From contig SHYO01000008.1 in the NCBI GenBank assembly GCA_009692745.1, forward strand, positions 1-45,712: a stretch of 45,712 nucleotides of DNA, read 5' to 3'. Both the position numbers and the translations under genes were made by a program. The notes under the pieces were generated by a model that saw nothing but the letters and a program-made list of their open reading frames with translations, made no database searches and had not been told where the DNA came from. Below are positions 1,369 through 27,482 of this stretch, piece by piece; the first letter of the stretch is position 1, and the number at the start of each line of letters is the position of its first letter. The stretch comes from Chloroflexota bacterium. Its GTDB lineage: Bacteria; Chloroflexota; Anaerolineae; Epilineales; SHYO01.

Positions 1369-1563
1369 ATGACTCTAACCACAGTCCTACAATTGCATAC
1401 GGAGCGGGACCGGCCGGGGTGCGCCACACAAGATGTGGTCACCGAGGTGAGCACAGTGACCACCACGGCCAAAAGGACAGGCAAAGCACAGGTGACAGTA
1501 AAATCCGGCGGCAGAAATGCCGACGCGCCAGGGGGAAACTGGCGCGCCAGGAAAATACTGTAA
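1369..1563 (+). CDS. Possible small ORF upstream of the primase gene
   Basis: 64 aa, GGAG upstream of ATG, ends 26 nt before the primase start; no recognised domain. Confidence 0.3.
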   Translation: MTLTTVLQLHTERDRPGCATQDVVTEVSTVTTTAKRTGKAQVTVKSGGRNADAPGGNWRARKIL

Positions 1564-1589
1564 ACCCCAAGACACATGAGGATGGTACA

Positions 1590-3980
1590 ATGATAACTGA
1601 TTCACTGAAATCTGTCAATCAACTGGCGCCCGATCACTATCGTATGCTGCACGCGGAGAGCGGTATAGACCCTGCGGTGATCCAGGAGCGCGGCTATCGC
1701 ACGGTGGTGGACGGCCGCGAGCTGGCGGCGCTGGGGCTGGCGCCGGCCCAGTGCCGCGTGCCCGGATTGCTGCTGCCCTTATACGCAGTCGACGGCAGCA
1801 GCCCGCTGGTGGTATACCGCCCGGACAACCCGCGGGTGGTGGAGGAGAAAAAGAGGAGGCTGCCGGACGGGACCTATCCCTGCAAAGTCATCAAGTATGA
1901 AGTGCCAAAGCAGGCCGGGGTGCGGCTGGACTGCCCGCCTCGCTGCCGCCCGCGGCTGGCCGACCCGCGCACCCCGCTGTGGATCACGGAGGGGCAGAAA
2001 AAGGCGGATAAGCTGGCGAGCGAAGGATTGTGCGCCGTCGCCTTGCTGGGGGTGTGGAACTTCAAGGGGCAGAACGACTTCGGCGGCACCACCTTCCTGG
2101 CCGATTGGGATTATATCGCCCTGCAGGGGCGCGAAGTCCGCATTGTATTTGATTCCGATGTGATGCAGAAACCCAGCGTGCGCCTGGCGCTGGAGCGGCT
2201 GAGCGAGCATCTGCGGCGCAAGGGGGCCAGCGTGGCCGCTGTGTACCTGCCGCCGGGGAGTGACGGGCGCAAGGTGGGAGTGGATGACTGGCTGGCCGCC
2301 GGGCATACTGCCGAGGCGCTAGGGGCGCTGGTCGAGGCGCCGCGCCGGCTGCCCCAGCCGCAGCAGCCCGCCCTGGAACTGCTGGACGCGCCGCCCGCAC
2401 ATCTGCGCCGGCCCCTGATGCTGATCGACGGCACGGCCTACGCCGCCGCCTGGCTGCACGTCAAGAAAACCATTACCGAGAAGCTGGACCGGGAGGGGCA
2501 TATTGTCCGGCTCGACCCACCCCAGGAGGAATACGCGCAGCAGCTTTTCGTGATGCGCAGCGATGGCGCTTTGACCGGCTGCCAGGCGGCGCAGGGAAGC
2601 CGCCCTGCCCCGTCGTCAGGCAGACCTGACCCCGCACTGGGTTTTGCGGTGGAACTGCCCGAGATCCCGCGCGATGAGAAATTGTGGTCGGCGGCGGGCG
2701 TGCGGGTTTACCGCGCGGGCAAACGCCCCGACCCGGCGGCGGTTTTCTGGCAGGTGGTGGATGTGATCAACACTTTCATCGACTTCGACCGCTCGCTGGG
2801 GGAGCAGCAGACGATGTGCGAGATGGTGGCCTGCTATGTCCTCAGCACCTGGTTCCTGGATGCCTTCAACGTGGTGGGCTTCCTGTGGCCCAACGGCGAG
2901 AGGGGCAGCGGCAAGAGCCACCTGCTGCTGCTGGTGGGGCAGTTAGCCTACCTGGGCGAGGTGATCCTGGCGGGCGGCTCCTTCCCCTCCCTCAGAGACC
3001 TGGCGGATTACGGCGCCACGCTGTGCTTCGACGACGCCGAGAGCCTCTCCAACGCCAAAACCGACCCCGACAAGCGTAACTTGCTGCTGGCGGGCAACCG
3101 GCGCGGCAGCACGGTGACGGTGAAGGAATTGGGGAGCGATAAGCAGTGGCATACGCGCTACGTGAACGCCTACTGCGCCCGCGCCTTCAGCGCCATCCAC
3201 CTGCCCGACCCAGTGCTGGGCAGCCGCACCATTGTGGTGCCGCTGGTGCGCACCACCGACCGGCGCAAGGCCAACGCCGATCCCTACGAACACAATCTCT
3301 GGCCCACCCCGCCGCGTAAGCTGCTGGACGATCTGTGGGCGCTGGGGCTGGCGAACCTGGCGGCCCTGCCGGCCTACGACGCCCAGGTGGGGCAGCGCTC
3401 CGCGCTGGCAGGACGCAACCTGGAACCCTGGCGCGCCCTGCTGGCGGTAGCGCTGTGGCTGGAGGAGCGCGGCGTGGCCGGGCTGTGGCAAAGGATGGAG
3501 GACCTGGCGGTGGCGTACCAGCAGGAGAAGCCCGGTTTGGAGACCGAAGACCTGACCGCCTCGGTGATCCGGGCGCTGTGCCAGTATGCCACTTCTACCA
3601 TTTCTACCATTTCTACCGTTTCTCCGGGTGATATACCCCACTGGAGGATGAAAACATCTGAAATTACAGAGTTAGTTAGAAAACTAGTAGAGGAGGAGGA
3701 TGGCAGCACAGAGTATATTAATGCTCGTAGGATTGGGCATAAACTGAGCGCGATGCGGTTCGAAAAACTATTTAGAGGTTCAGGAGAAGCAGGGAGAAAA
3801 TGGAAAATAACACTAAGAGACCTGGATAGGTGGGCTAAATCGTATGGCATTGAGTTTTTCCCACCCCCCTATATCCCTCCACAGAATGGTAGAAATGGTA
3901 GAAATGGTAGCAACTCCGCTCTACCCACGCTGGGAAACGAGCAGGGCGCCCCGCCCGACCGGGAGATTGTCATACTATGA
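1590..3980 (+). CDS. DUF3854-like TOPRIM/primase-helicase protein
   Basis: HYRMLHAESGI...PLWITEGQKKADKL...REVRIVFDSDV (TOPRIM-like), GERGSGKSHLLLLVGQ (Walker A), TLCFDDAES; start chosen at MITDSLKS with GAGG 9 nt upstream rather than ORF start 1362. Confidence 0.75.
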   Translation: MITDSLKSVNQLAPDHYRMLHAESGIDPAVIQERGYRTVVDGRELAALGLAPAQCRVPGLLLPLYAVDGSSPLVVYRPDNPRVVEEKKRRLPDGTYPCKVIKYEVPKQAGVRLDCPPRCRPRLADPRTPLWITEGQKKADKLASEGLCAVALLGVWNFKGQNDFGGTTFLADWDYIALQGREVRIVFDSDVMQKPSVRLALERLSEHLRRKGASVAAVYLPPGSDGRKVGVDDWLAAGHTAEALGALVEAPRRLPQPQQPALELLDAPPAHLRRPLMLIDGTAYAAAWLHVKKTITEKLDREGHIVRLDPPQEEYAQQLFVMRSDGALTGCQAAQGSRPAPSSGRPDPALGFAVELPEIPRDEKLWSAAGVRVYRAGKRPDPAAVFWQVVDVINTFIDFDRSLGEQQTMCEMVACYVLSTWFLDAFNVVGFLWPNGERGSGKSHLLLLVGQLAYLGEVILAGGSFPSLRDLADYGATLCFDDAESLSNAKTDPDKRNLLLAGNRRGSTVTVKELGSDKQWHTRYVNAYCARAFSAIHLPDPVLGSRTIVVPLVRTTDRRKANADPYEHNLWPTPPRKLLDDLWALGLANLAALPAYDAQVGQRSALAGRNLEPWRALLAVALWLEERGVAGLWQRMEDLAVAYQQEKPGLETEDLTASVIRALCQYATSTISTISTVSPGDIPHWRMKTSEITELVRKLVEEEDGSTEYINARRIGHKLSAMRFEKLFRGSGEAGRKWKITLRDLDRWAKSYGIEFFPPPYIPPQNGRNGRNGSNSALPTLGNEQGAPPDREIVIL
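3594..3616. repeat. Left arm CTACCATTTCTACCATTTCTACC of an inverted repeat
   Basis: Reverse complement of GGTAGAAATGGTAGAAATGGTAG near 3888-3910, itself tandem CTACCATTT. Confidence 0.8.
3888..3910. repeat. Right arm GGTAGAAATGGTAGAAATGGTAG of the inverted repeat
   Basis: Reverse complement of the 3594-3616 arm. Confidence 0.8.
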
Positions 3981-4510
3981 CGGGTGCAGTGGCAGCCGTT
4001 GAAATGGATGCGCCGGCCCGCAGCGCAGCAGACCTGGTGGCCAGCCTGGCAGCGCGCCAGGTCAGCGTGCAGGCCGTGGACGGCCACCTGGTGCTGGAAT
4101 CGCCGCCAGGGGCGCTGACGCCGGAGCTGCGGCAGGAAGTCAGCGCGCACAAGGCGGACCTGCTGGCGCTGCTGCAAGCGGACGGCCATCGGGTAGGGGC
4201 GGACGGCCGTCCGCCCCTACCGCAGCGCGGGCGCTGGATTCTGGACCCGCGCCCTGATCTGCCCGACACCGACCTGTGGCGCCGCCTGCTGCCCCTGGCC
4301 TTCGACCTGGATGGCCACGATCCCGCCGGGCTGTTCGGCAGCCTGCACGGCCTGCGCTGCGGCGGCGCCCGGCTGCGGCGCGATGGCTCCCCCCCCGGCG
4401 GGCAGGTCTACCTGGTGGGCGGCGACTGGGGCGAGGCGTACGCGGAGCTGTATATCCGGTACATCGTGCGGCATACGGAGGTGTTGAGAGAGTTGTTGGG
4501 AATGTTGTGA
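3977..4510 (+). CDS. TubC N-terminal docking-like protein, partner of the primase
   Basis: ADLVASLAARQVSVQAVDGHLVLESPPGALTPELRQEVSAHKADLLALL resembles TubC_N; start overlaps the primase stop (ATGA). Confidence 0.65.
   Translation: MTGAVAAVEMDAPARSAADLVASLAARQVSVQAVDGHLVLESPPGALTPELRQEVSAHKADLLALLQADGHRVGADGRPPLPQRGRWILDPRPDLPDTDLWRRLLPLAFDLDGHDPAGLFGSLHGLRCGGARLRRDGSPPGGQVYLVGGDWGEAYAELYIRYIVRHTEVLRELLGML
4192..4221. repeat. Perfect 30-bp palindrome GGTAGGGGCGGACGGCCGTCCGCCCCTACC inside the TubC_N-like CDS
   Basis: Complete self-complementarity, read in frame as GADGRPPLP. Confidence 0.9.
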
Positions 4511-19641: not shown

Positions 19642-20175
19642 CTACTCGGATTTTTGCCAATTATAATCTGCGATTGAGGTCGGCGCCGACCAGCCCCACT
19701 GCTCCGGGTAAGCGCCACGTTTTTGCCAGTGGACAAAGCTGCTGTGAGGCCATGATTCCGGCCTGTCGACCAACCCGTGCTTGACCGGGTTGTAATGAAT
19801 ATAATCCAAGTGGCGTTGTAGATCAATTTCGTCCCGTATAATATGATCCCAGAATCCTTTTTGCCAAAAGACTGTCTGACCCACCGTGCCCGTTGCAGCC
19901 TTATACGCTATAGTAAAATTGCGCTTCAGTGAGTGCATGATATCACTGAAGTTGCTTGGACTTGTTGGTTGAATCAGAAGGTGAAAATGGTCTGGTAAAA
20001 AAACATAGGCCAGCATGGTGAATGGATGATAGTCCTTTACGCGCTGTAGTGTCGTACGCAACAGTGCAAGATACTGCAGTTCTTGAAAAACCGGAGTTCG
20101 GTCCTGGACGATCTGGGTTATGAAGACCAGAGCATCGGAAATATAGTAGCGGCGGATGTTCATCGGGCGCACCAC
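19642..20175 (-). CDS. REP-associated tyrosine transposase (RAYT, Y1_Tnp)
   Basis: MLAYVFLPDHFHLLIQP (HUH-type), FWQKGFWDHIIRDEIDLQRHLDYIHYNPVKHGLVDRPESWPHSSFVHW. Confidence 0.93.
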   Translation of the reverse strand: MVRPMNIRRYYISDALVFITQIVQDRTPVFQELQYLALLRTTLQRVKDYHPFTMLAYVFLPDHFHLLIQPTSPSNFSDIMHSLKRNFTIAYKAATGTVGQTVFWQKGFWDHIIRDEIDLQRHLDYIHYNPVKHGLVDRPESWPHSSFVHWQKRGAYPEQWGWSAPTSIADYNWQKSE

Positions 20176-20214: not shown

Positions 20215-20242
20215 AAGCGTGCGGTTGGAAAACCGCACCTAC
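20215..20242. repeat. Single REP arm next to the RAYT gene
   Basis: AAGCGTGCGGTTGGAAAACCGCACCTAC. Confidence 0.85.
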
Positions 20243-22365
20243 TAAATTTCCTCCCGCCTGATTAATAGGTTCCCAAAGCGGTCAACCTGCGCCCGGTAAC
20301 CGGGGTGAATCACCGTGGTCGAATCGAACTCCTCCACAATCGCCGGACCGGCGATCACCGCGCCGGCACCCAGGCGATAGCGGTCATAGATACCACATTC
20401 CACATACCCGCCCCGCTCGGCGAAATAGACCGGGCGGGTAGTTTTTTGCGCTGTCCCCCCGGTAATATCCGCCGCGCCGGCTTGCTCAATCTGCCGCAGC
20501 TTCGGCTTAGCAATCTTGCCCAGCGCCGTCAGCCGCAAAGTCACCAGCTCAACCGGTTCCTCCGGGGCGCTGTAGCCATAGGCGCGCCGGTGCTCCTGGT
20601 GAAACCTGTTCAGAATCTCGGCCATTGTATCCGCCCCGAAAGGCGCAGGCCGCCCGTCGCCGTCTCCAAGCGGCATAGTCAGCTCGTAACTCTGCCCGAC
20701 GTAGCGGACATCCACCTGGCGGATGAAGCTTATATCTGCGTCTGCGATGCCTTCGCGTGCCAGGGCCGCCTGCCCGGCATGCATCCAACGCTGGAAGGCA
20801 GCTTCCACAGCGGCAGGATCGAGCCGGTCGACTCTTTGAATCAAGGTGGTAGCATAATCGTGCTTTAGATCCGTGACCAGCAATCCCATAGCCGAGGTAA
20901 TGCCGGGACTCATCGGAATCATGATCATCGGGATCTCGGTTTCAGCTCCCAACCGGTTGGCATGTAATGGCCCGGCGCCGCCGAACGCCACCAACACAAA
21001 GTCCCGCGGGTCATAGCCGCGCTGCACCGACACCAGGCGCAAAGCATTCACCATGGCTGCGTTAGCAATCTCCACAATGCCGTGAGCCACTTCCACCACA
21101 TCCAACCCCAGCGGCACGGCGCATTTTTCCTGAATTGCCTGCCGTGCCCGCGCCACATCCAGCTCGATCTCCCCACCCAGGAAATAGTGCGGATTGATGC
21201 GGCCCAACACCAGGTTGGCATCGGTGATCGTCGGCTCGGCGCCTCCTTTGCCATAACACACCGGCCCGGGGTCTGCCCCGGCGCTGCGCGGTCCCACCCG
21301 CAGCGCCCCACCAGCATCAATCCAGGCGATCGAGCCGCCGCCGGCCCCAATCTCCACCAGGTCAATCACCGGCGTCCGGATAGGATAACCACTGGCCTTG
21401 TTCCGGCCCGAACCCGATTTAGCCGTGGCTCCTACCTCATAATCCTTTGTCACCTGGGGTGTGCCATTCTGGATCAGCCCGGCCTTAGCGGTGGTGCCGC
21501 CCATGTCCAGCGAGATAATATCTTTGTATCCCACTGAATTGCCCAGGTAGGCAGCCGCGATCACCCCTGCCGCGGGACCCGATTCCACCATAAAAACCGG
21601 CTTCTCGCAGGCAGCACTGAAGGTGAATACTCCTCCGTTACTCTGCATCACCAACAGCTCCGCTGCCAGGCCGGCCTCGCGCAAGCGCGCTTCGATCTTC
21701 TGCAAGTAGCGCATCACCACAGGGCGGATGCTGGCGTTGATAATGGTAGTGCTGGCGCGGAAGTACTCGCGGAATTCGGGCGCCACTTCAGACGACAGGG
21801 AGATGATCGCCTCTGGAAAAACCTCCCGTAGGATCTCCCCGGCGCGCCGCTCATGGGCCGGGTTGATATAGGCATGTAGAAAACAGACGGCGACGGACTC
21901 CACGCCTTCGCGCCGCAGCGCTTCACCCACCTGGCGCATCGCGTCCTCATCCAGCGGCAGCAGAACTTGTCCTTGGGCATCCAACCGCTCGGGCACCCCA
22001 TAACACAGGTTGCGCGGCACAAGCGGGCGCGGCTTCTCAAAATGCACATCGTAGAGGGAGGGGCGGATCTGGCGCGCAATCTCCAACATATCGCGGAATC
22101 CCGCGGTGGTCACAAAGCCGGTGCGGGCTATCTTACCCTCGATGATGGCGTTGGTCGCCACCGTGGTGCCGTGTACCACATACTCCACCTCCCCCGGCGC
22201 CACCTCTGCCTGGCGCAAGATGCGGGCGGTCGCTTCCAGGAAGCCGATAGAGGGATCTTGAGGAGTCGATGAGACCTTGCCAATGCGAATCTCGCCGGTA
22301 GTCTCATTAATCAACGTAGCATCGGTGAAGGTGCCACCGATATCGATGCCAAGTCTGTATGCCAT
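20242..22365 (-). CDS. hyuA: Hydantoinase/oxoprolinase family protein, HyuA type
   Basis: MAYRLGIDIGGTFTDATLI...VHGTTVATNAIIEGK...SLDMGGTTAK...VLVAFGGAGPLHA. Confidence 0.93.
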   Translation of the reverse strand: MAYRLGIDIGGTFTDATLINETTGEIRIGKVSSTPQDPSIGFLEATARILRQAEVAPGEVEYVVHGTTVATNAIIEGKIARTGFVTTAGFRDMLEIARQIRPSLYDVHFEKPRPLVPRNLCYGVPERLDAQGQVLLPLDEDAMRQVGEALRREGVESVAVCFLHAYINPAHERRAGEILREVFPEAIISLSSEVAPEFREYFRASTTIINASIRPVVMRYLQKIEARLREAGLAAELLVMQSNGGVFTFSAACEKPVFMVESGPAAGVIAAAYLGNSVGYKDIISLDMGGTTAKAGLIQNGTPQVTKDYEVGATAKSGSGRNKASGYPIRTPVIDLVEIGAGGGSIAWIDAGGALRVGPRSAGADPGPVCYGKGGAEPTITDANLVLGRINPHYFLGGEIELDVARARQAIQEKCAVPLGLDVVEVAHGIVEIANAAMVNALRLVSVQRGYDPRDFVLVAFGGAGPLHANRLGAETEIPMIMIPMSPGITSAMGLLVTDLKHDYATTLIQRVDRLDPAAVEAAFQRWMHAGQAALAREGIADADISFIRQVDVRYVGQSYELTMPLGDGDGRPAPFGADTMAEILNRFHQEHRRAYGYSAPEEPVELVTLRLTALGKIAKPKLRQIEQAGAADITGGTAQKTTRPVYFAERGGYVECGIYDRYRLGAGAVIAGPAIVEEFDSTTVIHPGYRAQVDRFGNLLIRREEI

Positions 22366-22366
22366 A

Positions 22367-25300
22367 TCAAGAAAATTCCTCTATTGTCGGGGCAGCAGCC
22401 AAAGATTGCATGGCATTGAATGCTGCATCAAGCACCTCGGGATCTCGTTCCTCTTGAAGTAAGCGCTCAAGCAGGGCAAATATGTGAGGCTGGCGAAAAC
22501 TAGCTTTCAACTTTCCCAGAGCCAATGCAGCTTGCTTGCGTATATCCTCAGAATTTGGAATCATTGCCAATGGATGGGCTCCATAGTCCAAGGCTTGAAT
22601 AAGTGTAGCGGTCGCTTCAGTAGCAAATCTGTCGTCGTTGAGAAGTAATTCTGCGACAGCGATATGTGCGGGCCATGCATCAAGGCCCCGATCATCCTCT
22701 AAAGTTGCTATAAGTGGAACTATAGCTTGAGCAAGACACTCTTGCCCGGCCTCGGCAAGAATTTCCGCGGCGCTTCGTCGAGACCGCCAATCCATAGAAC
22801 TCAGCAAATTTATGATCTCATGCCGGGCTGTCAGATCATTGGCTATCAATCTGCCCCATTGATGTACGACGATCTGCCGGGAATCCACTATTTCTCCGTA
22901 CACGCTGAAATATTGACCATCCGATGCCAAAACAGGCTGCAATTTCTGACGCAGGCCGGTATCTACTTCCACCAGCTCAGCCAGCGCGTACACGGCAGCC
23001 GCTCGCACGTAACGATCCTCATCCTCCAGACGGGTCACCACCTCCGAGCGGATATCCGCATCGCTACCCACTGACTCGGCCAACACCTGCACGGCAGTCG
23101 TCCGCACGTAACTATCCTCATCCTCCAGACGGGTCACCACCTCCGAGCGGATATCTGCATCGCTACCCACCAGCTTAGCCAACGCCCGCACAGCAGCCCC
23201 CCGCACGTAACGATCCTCATCCTCCAGACGGGCCACGACCGCCGAGCGGATATCCGCATCGCTACCCACCAGATCAGCCAGCACGTACACGGCAGCCGCT
23301 CGCACGTCATTATCCTCATCCTCCAGACAGGCCACCAGAGCTGCGCGGATATCCGCATCACTACTCACCAGCTCAGCCAACGCCCGCACAGTAGCCCCCC
23401 GCACGTCATTATCCTCATCCTCCAGACGGGCCACTACCTCCGAGCGGATATCTGCATTGCTACCCACCAACTCAGCCAGTGCGTACACGGCAGCCGCTCG
23501 CACGTCATTATCCTCATCCTCCAGACGGGCCACGACCGCCGAGCGGATATCTGCATTGCTACCCACCAACTCAGCCAAGGCCTGCACGGCAGCCGCTCGC
23601 ACGTCATTATCCTCATCCTCCAGACGGGCCACTACCTCCGAGCGGATATCCACATCGCTACCCACCAACTCAGCCAAGGCCTGCACGGCAGCCGCCCGCA
23701 CGTAACTATCCTCATCCTCCAGACGGGCCACTACCGCCGAGCGGATATCTGCATCGCTACCCACTAGCTCAGCCAACGCCCGCACGGCAGCCCCCCGCAC
23801 ATACGAAGCGTCATCATCTAAGTGGGCTACCACATTAGCCTTTACCATATTATCCTGGCGAACGAATCCAGCCAATACCTTCAGAACGGCGATATGGGCC
23901 TGGTTAGATTCCAGGCAACGATGATCCTTCAATGTCTTAAATATCAAGTGGACAAGGTCACCTTGATTCGTAGCGCCGTTCATCAAGGTGAGGCAAGCTA
24001 TGCGTCTAGTTTCCCAATCACGATGGGTAAGTAAATTTTGAATTGTTGTGGCTACATTGTGATCTCGATCCATCAATTTTCCGAGGGTTTCAACGGCAGC
24101 CGTCCGCACGTAACGATCCTCATCCTCCAGACAGGCCATCAGAGTTGCGCGGATATCCGCATCACTACTCACCAGCTCAGTCAGCGCGTACACGGCAGCC
24201 GCTCGCACGTCATTATCCTCATCCTCCAGACGGGCCACGACCGCCGAGCGGATATCCGCATCGCTACCCACTGACTCGGCCAACACCTGCACGGCAGCCC
24301 CCCGCACGTAACTATCCTTATCCTCCAGACAGGCCACCAGAGCTGCGCGGATATCCGCATCGCTACCCACCAACTCAGCAAGTGCGTACACAGCAGCCCC
24401 CCGCACGTAACCATCATCCTCCAGACGGGCCACGACCGCCGAGCGGATATCCGCATCGCTACCCACCGACTCGGCCAACACCTGCACGGCAGCCGCTCGC
24501 ACGTCATTAGCCTCATCCTCCAGACAGGCCACTACCGCCGAGCGGATATCCGCATCACTACCCACCAGCTCAGCCAACGCCCGCACGGCAGCCGCTCGCA
24601 CGTAACCATCCTCATCCTCCAGACAGGTTATCACCTCCGAGCGAATCACGTTATCCTGGCCTAAAAACTCCACCAGGGCATTTAATACCTTGACGGTTAT
24701 TTTCCGGTCGTTTATATTGGATATCCGCCTTCGTTTCAGAAGATTAACAATCACTTCCAAAGCTTCGGGAACTCTTGATCTATCCCCTGCACGAAGCGTC
24801 GATAGAAGCGTTAACCTACGAATAGAATTTCTCTGAAGGTTGGGTATATGAGAAATTGTTAAAGGTTCTAATCTTTGAACAATCCGTCGAAGGGTTGGCA
24901 AGCCGATATTGATGTCGTCTATTGCACAATCGGCAGCCAGGAATAGATCGCGATGCAGAAGTGCTTCATGGGCATTCTTAGCATCTAAAATCTGCTCAAG
25001 AAGTTGTTTGGCCTCAATACCACGATTTTCGGTCACACCCAACCGCGCAGCAGCTAAAAGAATAGGTTCACGCCAACGGTTTGCATGTAAATTATCTTTG
25101 ACCCGCTTCCAGCGTTCTTCGGGTGACATACGTGCCAGGGCGCGCCCGGCGAAGTATTCTTGAAAAGTAAGATGGCGAAAACCAAAGGCATTTTGACCTC
25201 GTTCAACCAGTAATCCCGAAAACTGGCGCATGTCATTAAGGAATGTCTCTGTCCGGCGCTCTGCTTCGTGTAATTCAGCTACCTGGACGTCAGGATCGTC

Positions 25301-27451
25301 CGGATCTACACCTAAATCGCGCAGGTAAAAACGTTTAAGGCGTTCCATCAACTCGGTGTGAGTAGCCGTACCACTCGGTTTATACTCTTGCAACCATAAG
25401 GACAATGGAATAAGGACATTTTCGGCTTCTAATGTATCAATGCGCTTTGGAGCTTTCAAACGGGCTCCCCGGCTGCGATTTTCTTCCCAATTCTGCACCA
25501 GAGCAGATATATATTGGTCATACAGTCGGATGCGGCGCTGCGGAAGCTTTCCGATTTGTCGCCGAAGTAATGCCAGCATTGTGAGCAATAGTGGATTTAC
25601 AGCCAATCGCTCAATACCCGGATTGCTTCTGATTTCATCCATCAGATTGCTTTCGTCAATCTGGCTTTTCAAAGCTATATAAGGAGAGTCCTGTCCCTTT
25701 GCATCCCAAACCGCCATAGCGCGGCACCATTGGTGGGCAAAGACTTCGATTTCTTCACGCCGGAAGTCCAGAACTGTGATATGGGGGAGATCTACCGACA
25801 AGCGGGCCACCCGGTAACCAAATATCCGGCTTGTAAGTAGCACGCGATTCTCTTTTCCTATTACCTCGTGAAGGAATACACTAACTTGCTCGGCCACAAA
25901 TCTGCGCCGATCTTCTTCTACAACTTCGTCCAGGCCATCCAAAAGAATGAGAGCCTGTCCGGTATCAAGCGCAATTTCAAAAACCGGACCCAACCCAGGG
26001 AAAGCCCGGCGCCGATCGTAATAAGTCGCTAGAAATTCCCGCACGGTCAGTTGTGGGACCCCAGAGAGCATATCGTCATAAGCAGCCAGAGGCACAAAGA
26101 TAGGTAATCGCTCGGCATCTGCTCCTGATATTTTTAAATGTTCATGTACTTTCTGAGGCCCCTGTGCATACACCAGGGCCAGAAAATGCAGCAAAGTCGT
26201 TTTACCACTACCTGGATCACCCAGGATTACCAATCCATGTTGATCGGATTTTCGCAACGATTCTGCGATTGGGAATCGCTCCAACCTTTCTTTTGTCCAC
26301 CTTTCCCGCCGCAGAGCGTCCAGGCGCAACTGAGCCTCGCGTAAATCCTCTTCTTTTCCTTCCTCTTCAAATAACCGCAGCAATCGGCGTTCTTCGGGGG
26401 AGAATACATCGGCTGCCTCAGGAACTTCTGCCACGGCTCGTAATTGGACATAAACTCGTTCTAACGGTAATACGATAGGTCGAACGCTGCTAGAAAGCCC
26501 TTCAAAATGTAAATCTTTATAAAGACTGGTAATGAGCTCAAGGTATCGAGTTTTTCTTGCGACCAATTCTTCGGCGGTAGGTGCTGTAGAAGGCTGGATC
26601 AATCCCCGCCGCATCTCTTGAAGGAGTTCTAACAGAGGAGCCAGATCAACCTTAACTTCCACTTCTGGAATGGTGATACGGCCAGCCAGATCAACTTCCA
26701 GGTATTTTCCAATCTGGAATAACCCGAAGGCTACATCCTGGTATGCTGTAATCTGACTGCCCGGTGCTGTTGATATCCTGCTGCGAATCTCCTCGACCAC
26801 TTGCTGCGGTTGTGCTTGACCACGGAGCATTTGTTCTAAAATCATCACTATCCGGCCAACACCTTCGGCCGTAATTTCTGTAGCCGCGGCGGTGTGCTCA
26901 CTTGAAAAGGCTATCCGCTTAGTATCACGCGCCAGGGCACCGAAATTCTCAACCATTTCGCGCAACAACCGGATACTGATAGCATGCTGGAGTTCGGGCT
27001 TATCGGCAGCCGCATCGTAGAAAGCTAATATCAGGGCAGCGATCAGATCCTCAAATTTTGGTTGTGTTAAATAATCAGGATCGAATCCGGCTGCTATAAA
27101 TTCATCGCGCAGTAATTCTATGTCGGGGAAAGTGTCAGGGTTGGGATTAATGATTAAGCTCAATTCCAAAATGACATCTTCTCGTTGGATGAATTCTCGG
27201 AATAAGGAATAGTAATGATTAGACGTTTCTGGCGTAAGAGGTAGTTGCAGTATAGCTGCAGCCAATCCTTCCGCCAGAGCTGATTGAAGAGCATGTTGGC
27301 GTGGTTCGCTCTTGAAAAGCTGGGCCGTGCGCTTGCCCGCGGCTTCCAACAGCGTTACGGTCAGGCCACCGACGAACTCAGGGGCTGCCTTGCCTGCAAG
27401 GTCAATCAATGCTGCTTGGGTTTCTGGACTTAAGAAATTGAACCAGTCCAT
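22367..27451 (-). CDS. NACHT-family STAND NTPase with C-terminal HEAT-repeat arrays
   Basis: LVILGDPGSGKTTLLHFLALVYA (Walker A), LILLDGLDEVVEEDRRRFVAEQV (Walker B), then about 15 DADIRSAVVARLEDEDNDVRAAAVYALAELVGS units; start chosen at MDWFNFLSPE rather than 27475. Confidence 0.88.
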   Translation of the reverse strand: MDWFNFLSPETQAALIDLAGKAAPEFVGGLTVTLLEAAGKRTAQLFKSEPRQHALQSALAEGLAAAILQLPLTPETSNHYYSLFREFIQREDVILELSLIINPNPDTFPDIELLRDEFIAAGFDPDYLTQPKFEDLIAALILAFYDAAADKPELQHAISIRLLREMVENFGALARDTKRIAFSSEHTAAATEITAEGVGRIVMILEQMLRGQAQPQQVVEEIRSRISTAPGSQITAYQDVAFGLFQIGKYLEVDLAGRITIPEVEVKVDLAPLLELLQEMRRGLIQPSTAPTAEELVARKTRYLELITSLYKDLHFEGLSSSVRPIVLPLERVYVQLRAVAEVPEAADVFSPEERRLLRLFEEEGKEEDLREAQLRLDALRRERWTKERLERFPIAESLRKSDQHGLVILGDPGSGKTTLLHFLALVYAQGPQKVHEHLKISGADAERLPIFVPLAAYDDMLSGVPQLTVREFLATYYDRRRAFPGLGPVFEIALDTGQALILLDGLDEVVEEDRRRFVAEQVSVFLHEVIGKENRVLLTSRIFGYRVARLSVDLPHITVLDFRREEIEVFAHQWCRAMAVWDAKGQDSPYIALKSQIDESNLMDEIRSNPGIERLAVNPLLLTMLALLRRQIGKLPQRRIRLYDQYISALVQNWEENRSRGARLKAPKRIDTLEAENVLIPLSLWLQEYKPSGTATHTELMERLKRFYLRDLGVDPDDPDVQVAELHEAERRTETFLNDMRQFSGLLVERGQNAFGFRHLTFQEYFAGRALARMSPEERWKRVKDNLHANRWREPILLAAARLGVTENRGIEAKQLLEQILDAKNAHEALLHRDLFLAADCAIDDINIGLPTLRRIVQRLEPLTISHIPNLQRNSIRRLTLLSTLRAGDRSRVPEALEVIVNLLKRRRISNINDRKITVKVLNALVEFLGQDNVIRSEVITCLEDEDGYVRAAAVRALAELVGSDADIRSAVVACLEDEANDVRAAAVQVLAESVGSDADIRSAVVARLEDDGYVRGAAVYALAELVGSDADIRAALVACLEDKDSYVRGAAVQVLAESVGSDADIRSAVVARLEDEDNDVRAAAVYALTELVSSDADIRATLMACLEDEDRYVRTAAVETLGKLMDRDHNVATTIQNLLTHRDWETRRIACLTLMNGATNQGDLVHLIFKTLKDHRCLESNQAHIAVLKVLAGFVRQDNMVKANVVAHLDDDASYVRGAAVRALAELVGSDADIRSAVVARLEDEDSYVRAAAVQALAELVGSDVDIRSEVVARLEDEDNDVRAAAVQALAELVGSNADIRSAVVARLEDEDNDVRAAAVYALAELVGSNADIRSEVVARLEDEDNDVRGATVRALAELVSSDADIRAALVACLEDEDNDVRAAAVYVLADLVGSDADIRSAVVARLEDEDRYVRGAAVRALAKLVGSDADIRSEVVTRLEDEDSYVRTTAVQVLAESVGSDADIRSEVVTRLEDEDRYVRAAAVYALAELVEVDTGLRQKLQPVLASDGQYFSVYGEIVDSRQIVVHQWGRLIANDLTARHEIINLLSSMDWRSRRSAAEILAEAGQECLAQAIVPLIATLEDDRGLDAWPAHIAVAELLLNDDRFATEATATLIQALDYGAHPLAMIPNSEDIRKQAALALGKLKASFRQPHIFALLERLLQEERDPEVLDAAFNAMQSLAAAPTIEEFS
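22964..23854 (-). repeat. HEAT-encoding tandem array, 9 x 99 bp
   Basis: Exactly 891 bp from DNMVKANVV to the last ELVEV; inner units near-identical at DNA level. Confidence 0.93.
24065..24655 (-). repeat. HEAT-encoding tandem array, 6 units (591 bp = 6 x 99 minus one codon)
   Basis: Units from DNVIRSEVI to LGKLMDR; third unit lacks one codon (LEDDGYV vs LEDEDGYV). Confidence 0.92.
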
Positions 27452-27482
27452 AATTAGCCCTCCACCGAGTACCACAAAACTT

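Follow-up and report, generated by a model that had tools for sequence, protein, structure and literature searches.

How bacterial NLR-like receptors keep track of targets that change is the question raised by one gene in a 45,712-nucleotide stretch of DNA from a Chloroflexota bacterium (contig SHYO01000008.1 of assembly GCA_009692745.1; the whole stretch is referred to here as the window). An earlier reading of this DNA, made from the sequence alone and referred to below as the sequence-only reading, described two arrays of HEAT units and did not mention that they form the tail end of a gene for a NACHT receptor.

The HEAT arrays lie in the C-terminal half of a NACHT receptor

The features of the gene are as follows (window positions).

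22367 to 27475, minus strand: NACHT-HEAT receptor gene, 1702 aa from a GTG, no internal stop
26927 to 27376, minus strand: NNH2 (NACHT N-terminal helical domain 2), putative effector or adaptor; residues 34 to 183, Pfam E = 1.4e-7
25721 to 26233, minus strand: NACHT NTPase domain; residues 415 to 585, Pfam E = 9.4e-10
24656 to 25720, minus strand: helical region from NACHT to the arrays, mostly conserved with homologues, with matches reaching approximately residue 890 to 900
24065 to 24655, minus strand: HEAT array 1, six 33-residue units, one minus a codon
23855 to 24064, minus strand: helical spacer between the arrays, 70 residues of diverged repeats
22964 to 23854, minus strand: HEAT array 2, nine 33-residue units, pLDDT mostly about 65 to 87
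22370 to 22963, minus strand: C-terminal helical cap, alignable at 39% aa identity with that of the closest homologue

An ATG at position 27451, with GGAGGG just before it, is the likelier start of the receptor and would give a protein of 1694 aa. The NNH2 match becomes stronger when the N-terminal fragment is searched alone (Pfam E = 6e-9), and residues 1 to 160 are modelled as all-helical with a pLDDT of about 70 to 90; a fold search with the NNH2 model gave no significant match in the PDB. The NACHT domain carries the Walker A and B motifs GDPGSGKTT and ILLDGLDEV, which are kept across 18 homologues. Pfam detects HEAT repeats throughout the C-terminal half, and an AlphaFold model built from a single sequence shows successive helix pairs across the C-terminal region. 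Judged from these domain assignments, the protein is probably a bacterial NLR-like (STAND/NACHT) intracellular receptor with the HEAT arrays as its C-terminal sensor. In bacterial NACHT proteins, the NACHT module is accompanied by an effector part and a sensor part, and these proteins can confer protection from phage (PMC12169576). The window receptor is like them in having a predicted N-terminal effector, a NACHT module, and a C-terminal sensor in a single protein. In contrast, the described bNACHT proteins end in short SNaCT or NCH1 domains (PMC12169576), while the window receptor ends in interchangeable HEAT units.

The window genome is a draft of 4.37 Mb in 223 contigs and is 83% complete. 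The genes flanking the receptor are metabolic, and there is no defence island. The TGA of the receptor is followed by one base and then by the ATG of the hydantoinase A gene (20242 to 22365), all within window positions 22363 to 22369, and the receptor lies directly upstream of this gene in a run of hydantoinase, X-Pro dipeptidyl-peptidase (S15), and mandelate-racemase-like genes. An IS200-like Y1 transposase-family gene is found nearby (19642 to 20175). PADLOC matched the receptor best to a generic HEAT-ARM model and to no named anti-phage system, and no NCBIfam system fits (the score is 18 bits for the EruA model, whose cut-off is 1000). Four more NACHT proteins are encoded in the same genome (G000:C175, C157, and C61; L002 to L005), none with internally conserved repeats.

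Units within an array evolve together

Both arrays have the lengths given by the sequence-only reading, 9 x 99 bp and 6 x 99 bp minus one codon, at the positions listed above; the codon-short unit of array 1 reads LEDD-GYVRG. TRF recovers the 99-bp array as well, and the best 66-residue stretch at a lag of 33 has an identity of 0.92, compared with at most 0.29 in 200 residue shuffles. The description of the units as near-identical is nevertheless overstated. The mean pairwise identity among the 15 units is 79.7% at the nucleotide level and 70.6% at the amino acid level (range, 39 to 91% aa), every unit differs from all the others, and exact DNA repeats extend to at most 71 bp. The same is true of the statement that codons are almost fixed: the synonymous difference per site is 0.21 to 0.28, and several codons are used at scaffold unit positions 8, 27, and 30. 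Since pS in the window array is 0.28, its units are not very young. The GC content of fourfold-degenerate sites is 0.67 in the window array versus 0.47 in the remainder of the gene. A similar rise is present in arrays L114, L116, L068, and L073 and absent from most others, and the direction is reversed in L125 and L132. Biased gene conversion is a possible cause of the raised silent-site GC in the window array.

The nearest relative of a unit lies in the same protein for 124 of 128 units, including all 15 units of the window. Between the window receptor and its closest homologue, unit identity is 0.71 and 0.72 within each protein and 0.54 between them. These comparisons indicate that the units of these arrays are undergoing concerted evolution. 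The four-gamete test fails at 191 of the 351 pairs of informative sites in the window array, and the presence of all four combinations at these pairs points to mosaic units, with the caveat that recurrent mutation can inflate this count. We found no second copy of the array or of a unit, and no donor array, elsewhere in the window genome.

Arrays are rebuilt between sister species while the rest of the locus is conserved

The same receptor locus is present in two genomes, G173 and G124, that belong to different species of one genus. Over the core of the gene, 11 of 783 codons differ (99.5% nucleotide identity), while 36 of 119 aligned codons differ in the array (Fisher p = 7e-25 versus the core rate). 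The codon changes also differ in kind, with 29 nonsynonymous and 7 synonymous changes in the array versus 4 and 7 in the core (Fisher p = 0.009). The 3' halves of both loci were located on other contigs. In G124, a seven-unit array runs into the cap, and in G173 at least five clean units are followed by the same cap. The cap plus 2.1 kb downstream is 98.3 to 100% identical in each 300-bp block. Counted back from the cap, the last unit is 95% identical, the next four are 85 to 90% identical, and the sixth, at a garbled contig start, is 77% identical; compared from the 5' side, blocks of the array are 79 to 96% identical. Since core, cap, and downstream sequence are conserved and the array is mostly 77 to 96% identical, the flanks of the array have been kept and the array has not. 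The sequence-only reading had proposed a modular solenoid that is shuffled by recombination, a proposal at odds with unit number and order being fixed in close relatives. At this homologous locus, the array has diverged between near-identical flanks, and the proposal is supported for the family by this turnover and by the mosaic units.

Further pairs of related genomes give weaker support for turnover, as judged from their sequences. Two Nostoc species with NACHT cores that are 92% identical have zero exactly shared units, and the same is true of Nodosilinea and Kaiparowitsia, with cores that are 87% identical. No further close homologues beyond those used here were found in the family of G165 or in the order of G173. 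Taken on these homologues of the window gene, the comparisons indicate that in related bacteria array turnover greatly outpaces change elsewhere in the gene. Another NACHT-HEAT gene, which carries a related array of its own, is present in G173, the genome that also contains L068 (G173:C183, positions 1503 to 4245; L192), and this gene is a possible partner for inter-gene exchange.

All of the arrays come from draft assemblies, in which repeats of this kind are error-prone, and we considered whether short-read assembly has produced chimeric arrays, with collapse or misjoining of repeats accounting for the differences between homologues. Many of the homologous contigs do end within arrays, and the start of one G173 contig looks garbled. 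In addition, two G124 contigs have 126 bp in common, part of which is unique sequence preceding the array, and differ from there on, which a repeat-induced misjoin could produce. Possible sources of this fork are two array alleles coexisting in the population sampled, two copies of the gene, or a misjoin in assembly. Since a portion of the first unit is found again further into the array, we do not take the fork as proof of two alleles. However, misjoins reorder units and cannot make new unit sequences, and the compared pieces of G173 and G124 share no exact unit. On the window contig, a single reading frame stays open across both arrays and the caps are intact, the array is single-copy in its genome, and the pattern recurs in many genomes from different projects. 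We therefore regard an assembly artefact as very unlikely.

Variation is concentrated at the positions that bind ligand in alphaReps

In the AlphaFold model of array 2, helix A of a unit spans positions 2 to 13 and helix B starts at position 17. Ranked by entropy, the most variable unit positions are 17, 25, 7, 21, 32, 11, 26, and 18, which contain every position that the sequence-only reading had named as hypervariable along with position 32, which it omitted. The solved chains closest to the array by sequence are alphaReps (4zv6, E = 2e-34). Mapping of the variation onto a surface was attempted by Foldseek with the array model, which returned generic HEAT and karyopherin folds with low TM scores, and sequence homology to alphaReps was used instead. 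In the alphaRep library, positions 18, 19, 22, 23, 26, and 30 make up the binding face, and in the A3/bA3-2 alphaRep complex both proteins make contact via their concave faces (PMC3754942). By sequence alignment, these six positions correspond to window unit positions 17, 18, 21, 22, 25, and 29.

At the six alphaRep positions, 0.53 of window unit pairs differ, versus 0.23 at other positions (p = 0.0023, random position sets). This enrichment reaches p < 0.05 in 14 of 16 arrays (the window and 13 of 15 others); it is absent from the array of the closest homologue (L037; p = 0.21). The per-position variation profiles of the arrays correlate with that of the window (Spearman 0.61, p = 0.0005). 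The analogy with alphaReps drawn by the sequence-only reading is thus upheld with respect to the binding positions, but its positions 7, 11, and 26 are not among them. The window array is like the designed alphaRep binders in being nearest to them in sequence and in sharing scaffold and variable positions (PMC3754942). It is unlike them in that positions 22 and 29 vary little, position 22 being nearly fixed, and in that positions 7, 11, and 26 also vary. In addition, alphaReps are artificial, have 31-residue units, and are not fused to a signalling ATPase.

By pairwise counting, with no recombination or codon model, 13 of 16 arrays have a higher pN at the alphaRep positions than pS over the whole array. 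In the window, pN/pS is 1.17 at these positions and 0.46 at the others. The highest values at alphaRep positions are found in the youngest arrays (5.0 in L116 and 5.4 in L068, with 2.8 in L114), and non-alphaRep positions have values of 0.3 to 0.7 in most arrays. A dN/dS of 2.4 obtained at hypervariable positions picked from the window itself was discarded as circular and replaced by the values at these externally defined positions.

These values bear on the alternative that the arrays are homogenised neutrally by slippage and gene conversion, the HEAT tail being a mere scaffold whose surface positions vary as unconstrained sites. Surface positions vary most in any HEAT repeat, the raised silent-site GC of the window and some other arrays is what biased gene conversion would give, and the pN/pS of the window array is just 1.17; because this value is near 1, a neutral reading is tenable for the window array. 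It suits the young homologous arrays less well. There, pN is well above pS at the alphaRep positions, the sister arrays of G173 and G124 have the nonsynonymous excess over the core described above, and other exposed helix positions are less variable. On balance, we consider neutral homogenisation unlikely as the explanation for these arrays.

The array-bearing receptors belong to a modular family

Relatives of the NACHT core (E <= 1e-30) are present in 82 of 396 genomes of the class. We assessed 57 Anaerolineae NACHT proteins, consisting of relatives at retrieved loci plus those of the window genome itself. Of these, 11 have C-terminal repeats of 31 to 35 residues with an internal identity of 0.73 to 0.94, one is intermediate, and the remainder are at or below 0.32, so that the distribution is bimodal, although the repeat scores depend on the chosen threshold. 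The repeats are HEAT units in every array-bearing homologue inspected. Other homologues stop at a contig end within the HEAT region, including the other two close relatives of the window gene, L036 and L038, which end in window-type units. Cyanobacterial carriers of arrays are the two Nostoc species, Nodosilinea, and Kaiparowitsia. The nearest named homologue is in Ardenticatenales bacterium MGR_bin47 (L094), of the same class as the window genome, with 49% identity over the NACHT region. The family is patchily distributed, as is typical of defence genes. No copy of the gene was found in the genus, family, or order of the window genome, which is the sole member of its genus and family compared, and a plasmid collection gave distant matches alone (~30% identity).

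The N-terminal modules of the family are NNH2 (window and cyanobacteria), bDLD1 (closest homologue), DUF4062 (L053 and L076), and EAD7 (L074); DUF4062 is described in a preprint as a TIR-like NADase family (PMC13174449). The C termini vary as well, according to a census that rests on simple motifs. Nine of ten array-less relatives scanned have a C-terminal FGE-sulfatase domain, and such a CLec-fold tail on the NACHT core is found in L040, L041, L047, L051, L055, L061, L064, L065, and L085. Some cyanobacterial NACHT relatives (L136, L149, L164, and L134) instead have low-complexity tails rich in N, L, D, and R (e.g., DLNLNLNLN) with a periodicity of 20 to 28 residues. FGE-sulfatase-type domains are targets of diversity-generating retroelements (DGRs) in other bacteria (PMC10907252), and one NACHT chassis appears to occur with two kinds of potentially hypervariable sensor, HEAT arrays and FGE-sulfatase domains.

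The presence of this DGR target type in relatives of the window receptor is the one point in favor of a DGR or another form of targeted mutagenesis, rather than unit recombination, as the source of array variation. Against it, the reverse transcriptase PF00078 was not found in the window genome (83% complete), there is no second unit copy to act as a possible template, and the changes are spread across units and are not adenine specific. We consider this source extremely improbable. The window receptor is like the DGR-diversified STAND/CLec sensors of multicellular bacteria in joining a STAND NTPase (NACHT or other) to a hypervariable C-terminal sensor (PMC10907252). It differs from them in that their single sensor domain is altered by retro-mutagenesis, while the window array would be altered by repeat recombination.

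A receptor with a recombining recognition surface

The best explanation for the whole of these observations is probably a NACHT receptor that recognises its target through a HEAT solenoid and whose specificity is reshaped by unit recombination. The solenoid would bind an invader or other non-self macromolecule via the variable residues of helix B, on the inner, concave face. Binding of this ligand would let the NACHT module oligomerise, and NNH2 would then act as, or recruit, a toxic or signalling output. The DNA similarity of the units would allow gene conversion and unequal recombination among them to alter how many units there are, how they are ordered, and which residues they expose, without loss of a foldable scaffold, and selection would retain new surfaces. 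From these observations and from what is established for bacterial NACHT proteins, the HEAT solenoid is inferred to act as the sensor, with its specificity determined by the concave positions and altered by recombination between units. Ligand binding, oligomerisation, the output, an anti-phage or allorecognition role, and turnover of the window gene itself are likewise presumed for this receptor.

Fungal NLRs carry highly conserved WD, ANK, TPR, and HEAT repeats that are polymorphic in number and whose concave face is under positive selection (PMC4986451, PMC12222747). The window receptor resembles the high internal conservation (HIC) NLRs among them (HET-E/HET-D HNWD; Podospora ANK/TPR/HEAT) in combining NACHT with closely similar C-terminal repeats that evolve in concert. 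Further possible resemblances are a nonsynonymous excess at concave or binding positions, slight in the window and clear in several homologues, and array polymorphism, seen here as array differences between homologous loci of sister species. The Podospora Pa_6_7270 locus, like the window receptor, encodes a NACHT protein with HEAT-type repeats (PMC4986451). Compared with the HIC criterion of >85% identity over at least 100 residues (PMC4986451), the window reaches 0.92 over its best 66 residues and an array-wide mean of 0.71 at the amino acid level. Unlike the fungal HIC NLRs, the window receptor is bacterial and has other N-terminal domains. In addition, within-species unit-number polymorphism and a non-self ligand have been demonstrated for the fungal proteins, whereas the array variation described here comes from homologous loci of sister species. 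By this comparison, the receptor family looks like a bacterial counterpart of the fungal NLRs with highly conserved repeats, in which recombination rebuilds a modular recognition surface.

The fungal comparison also raises the alternative that the receptor senses a host or colony partner rather than phage, in kin or self recognition comparable to fungal heterokaryon incompatibility. The closest described evolutionary mode is that of the fungal HNWD and HIC NLRs (PMC4986451, PMC12222747), and systems of this kind have been discussed as candidates for kin recognition in multicellular bacteria (PMC10907252). Bacterial NACHT proteins tested to date, however, defend against phage (PMC12169576). The observations made here fit either kind of ligand, and we regard a partner-sensing role as rather unlikely.

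In the open-licence literature of PubMed Central, we found descriptions of fungal HEAT, TPR, ANK, and WD40 cases and of bacterial WD40 cases, and none of bacterial NACHT-HEAT arrays with this mode of evolution. The NACHT-HEAT family may be part of a wider, recombination-based diversification of bacterial receptors, in which one NACHT chassis is combined with alternative hypervariable sensors (HEAT arrays or FGE/CLec domains) and array alleles coexist within single natural populations, a proposal that we make tentatively. If the NACHT-HEAT receptors do work as proposed, they would be a bacterial analogue of the fungal HIC NLRs and would hold a natural library of binding surfaces similar to that of the alphaReps. 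This would extend the fungal mode of high internal conservation to bacteria and provide a natural counterpart of the designed alphaRep library. A fixed scaffold with reshuffled binding positions and units would then be a directly testable answer to the question of how bacterial NLR-like receptors track changing targets.
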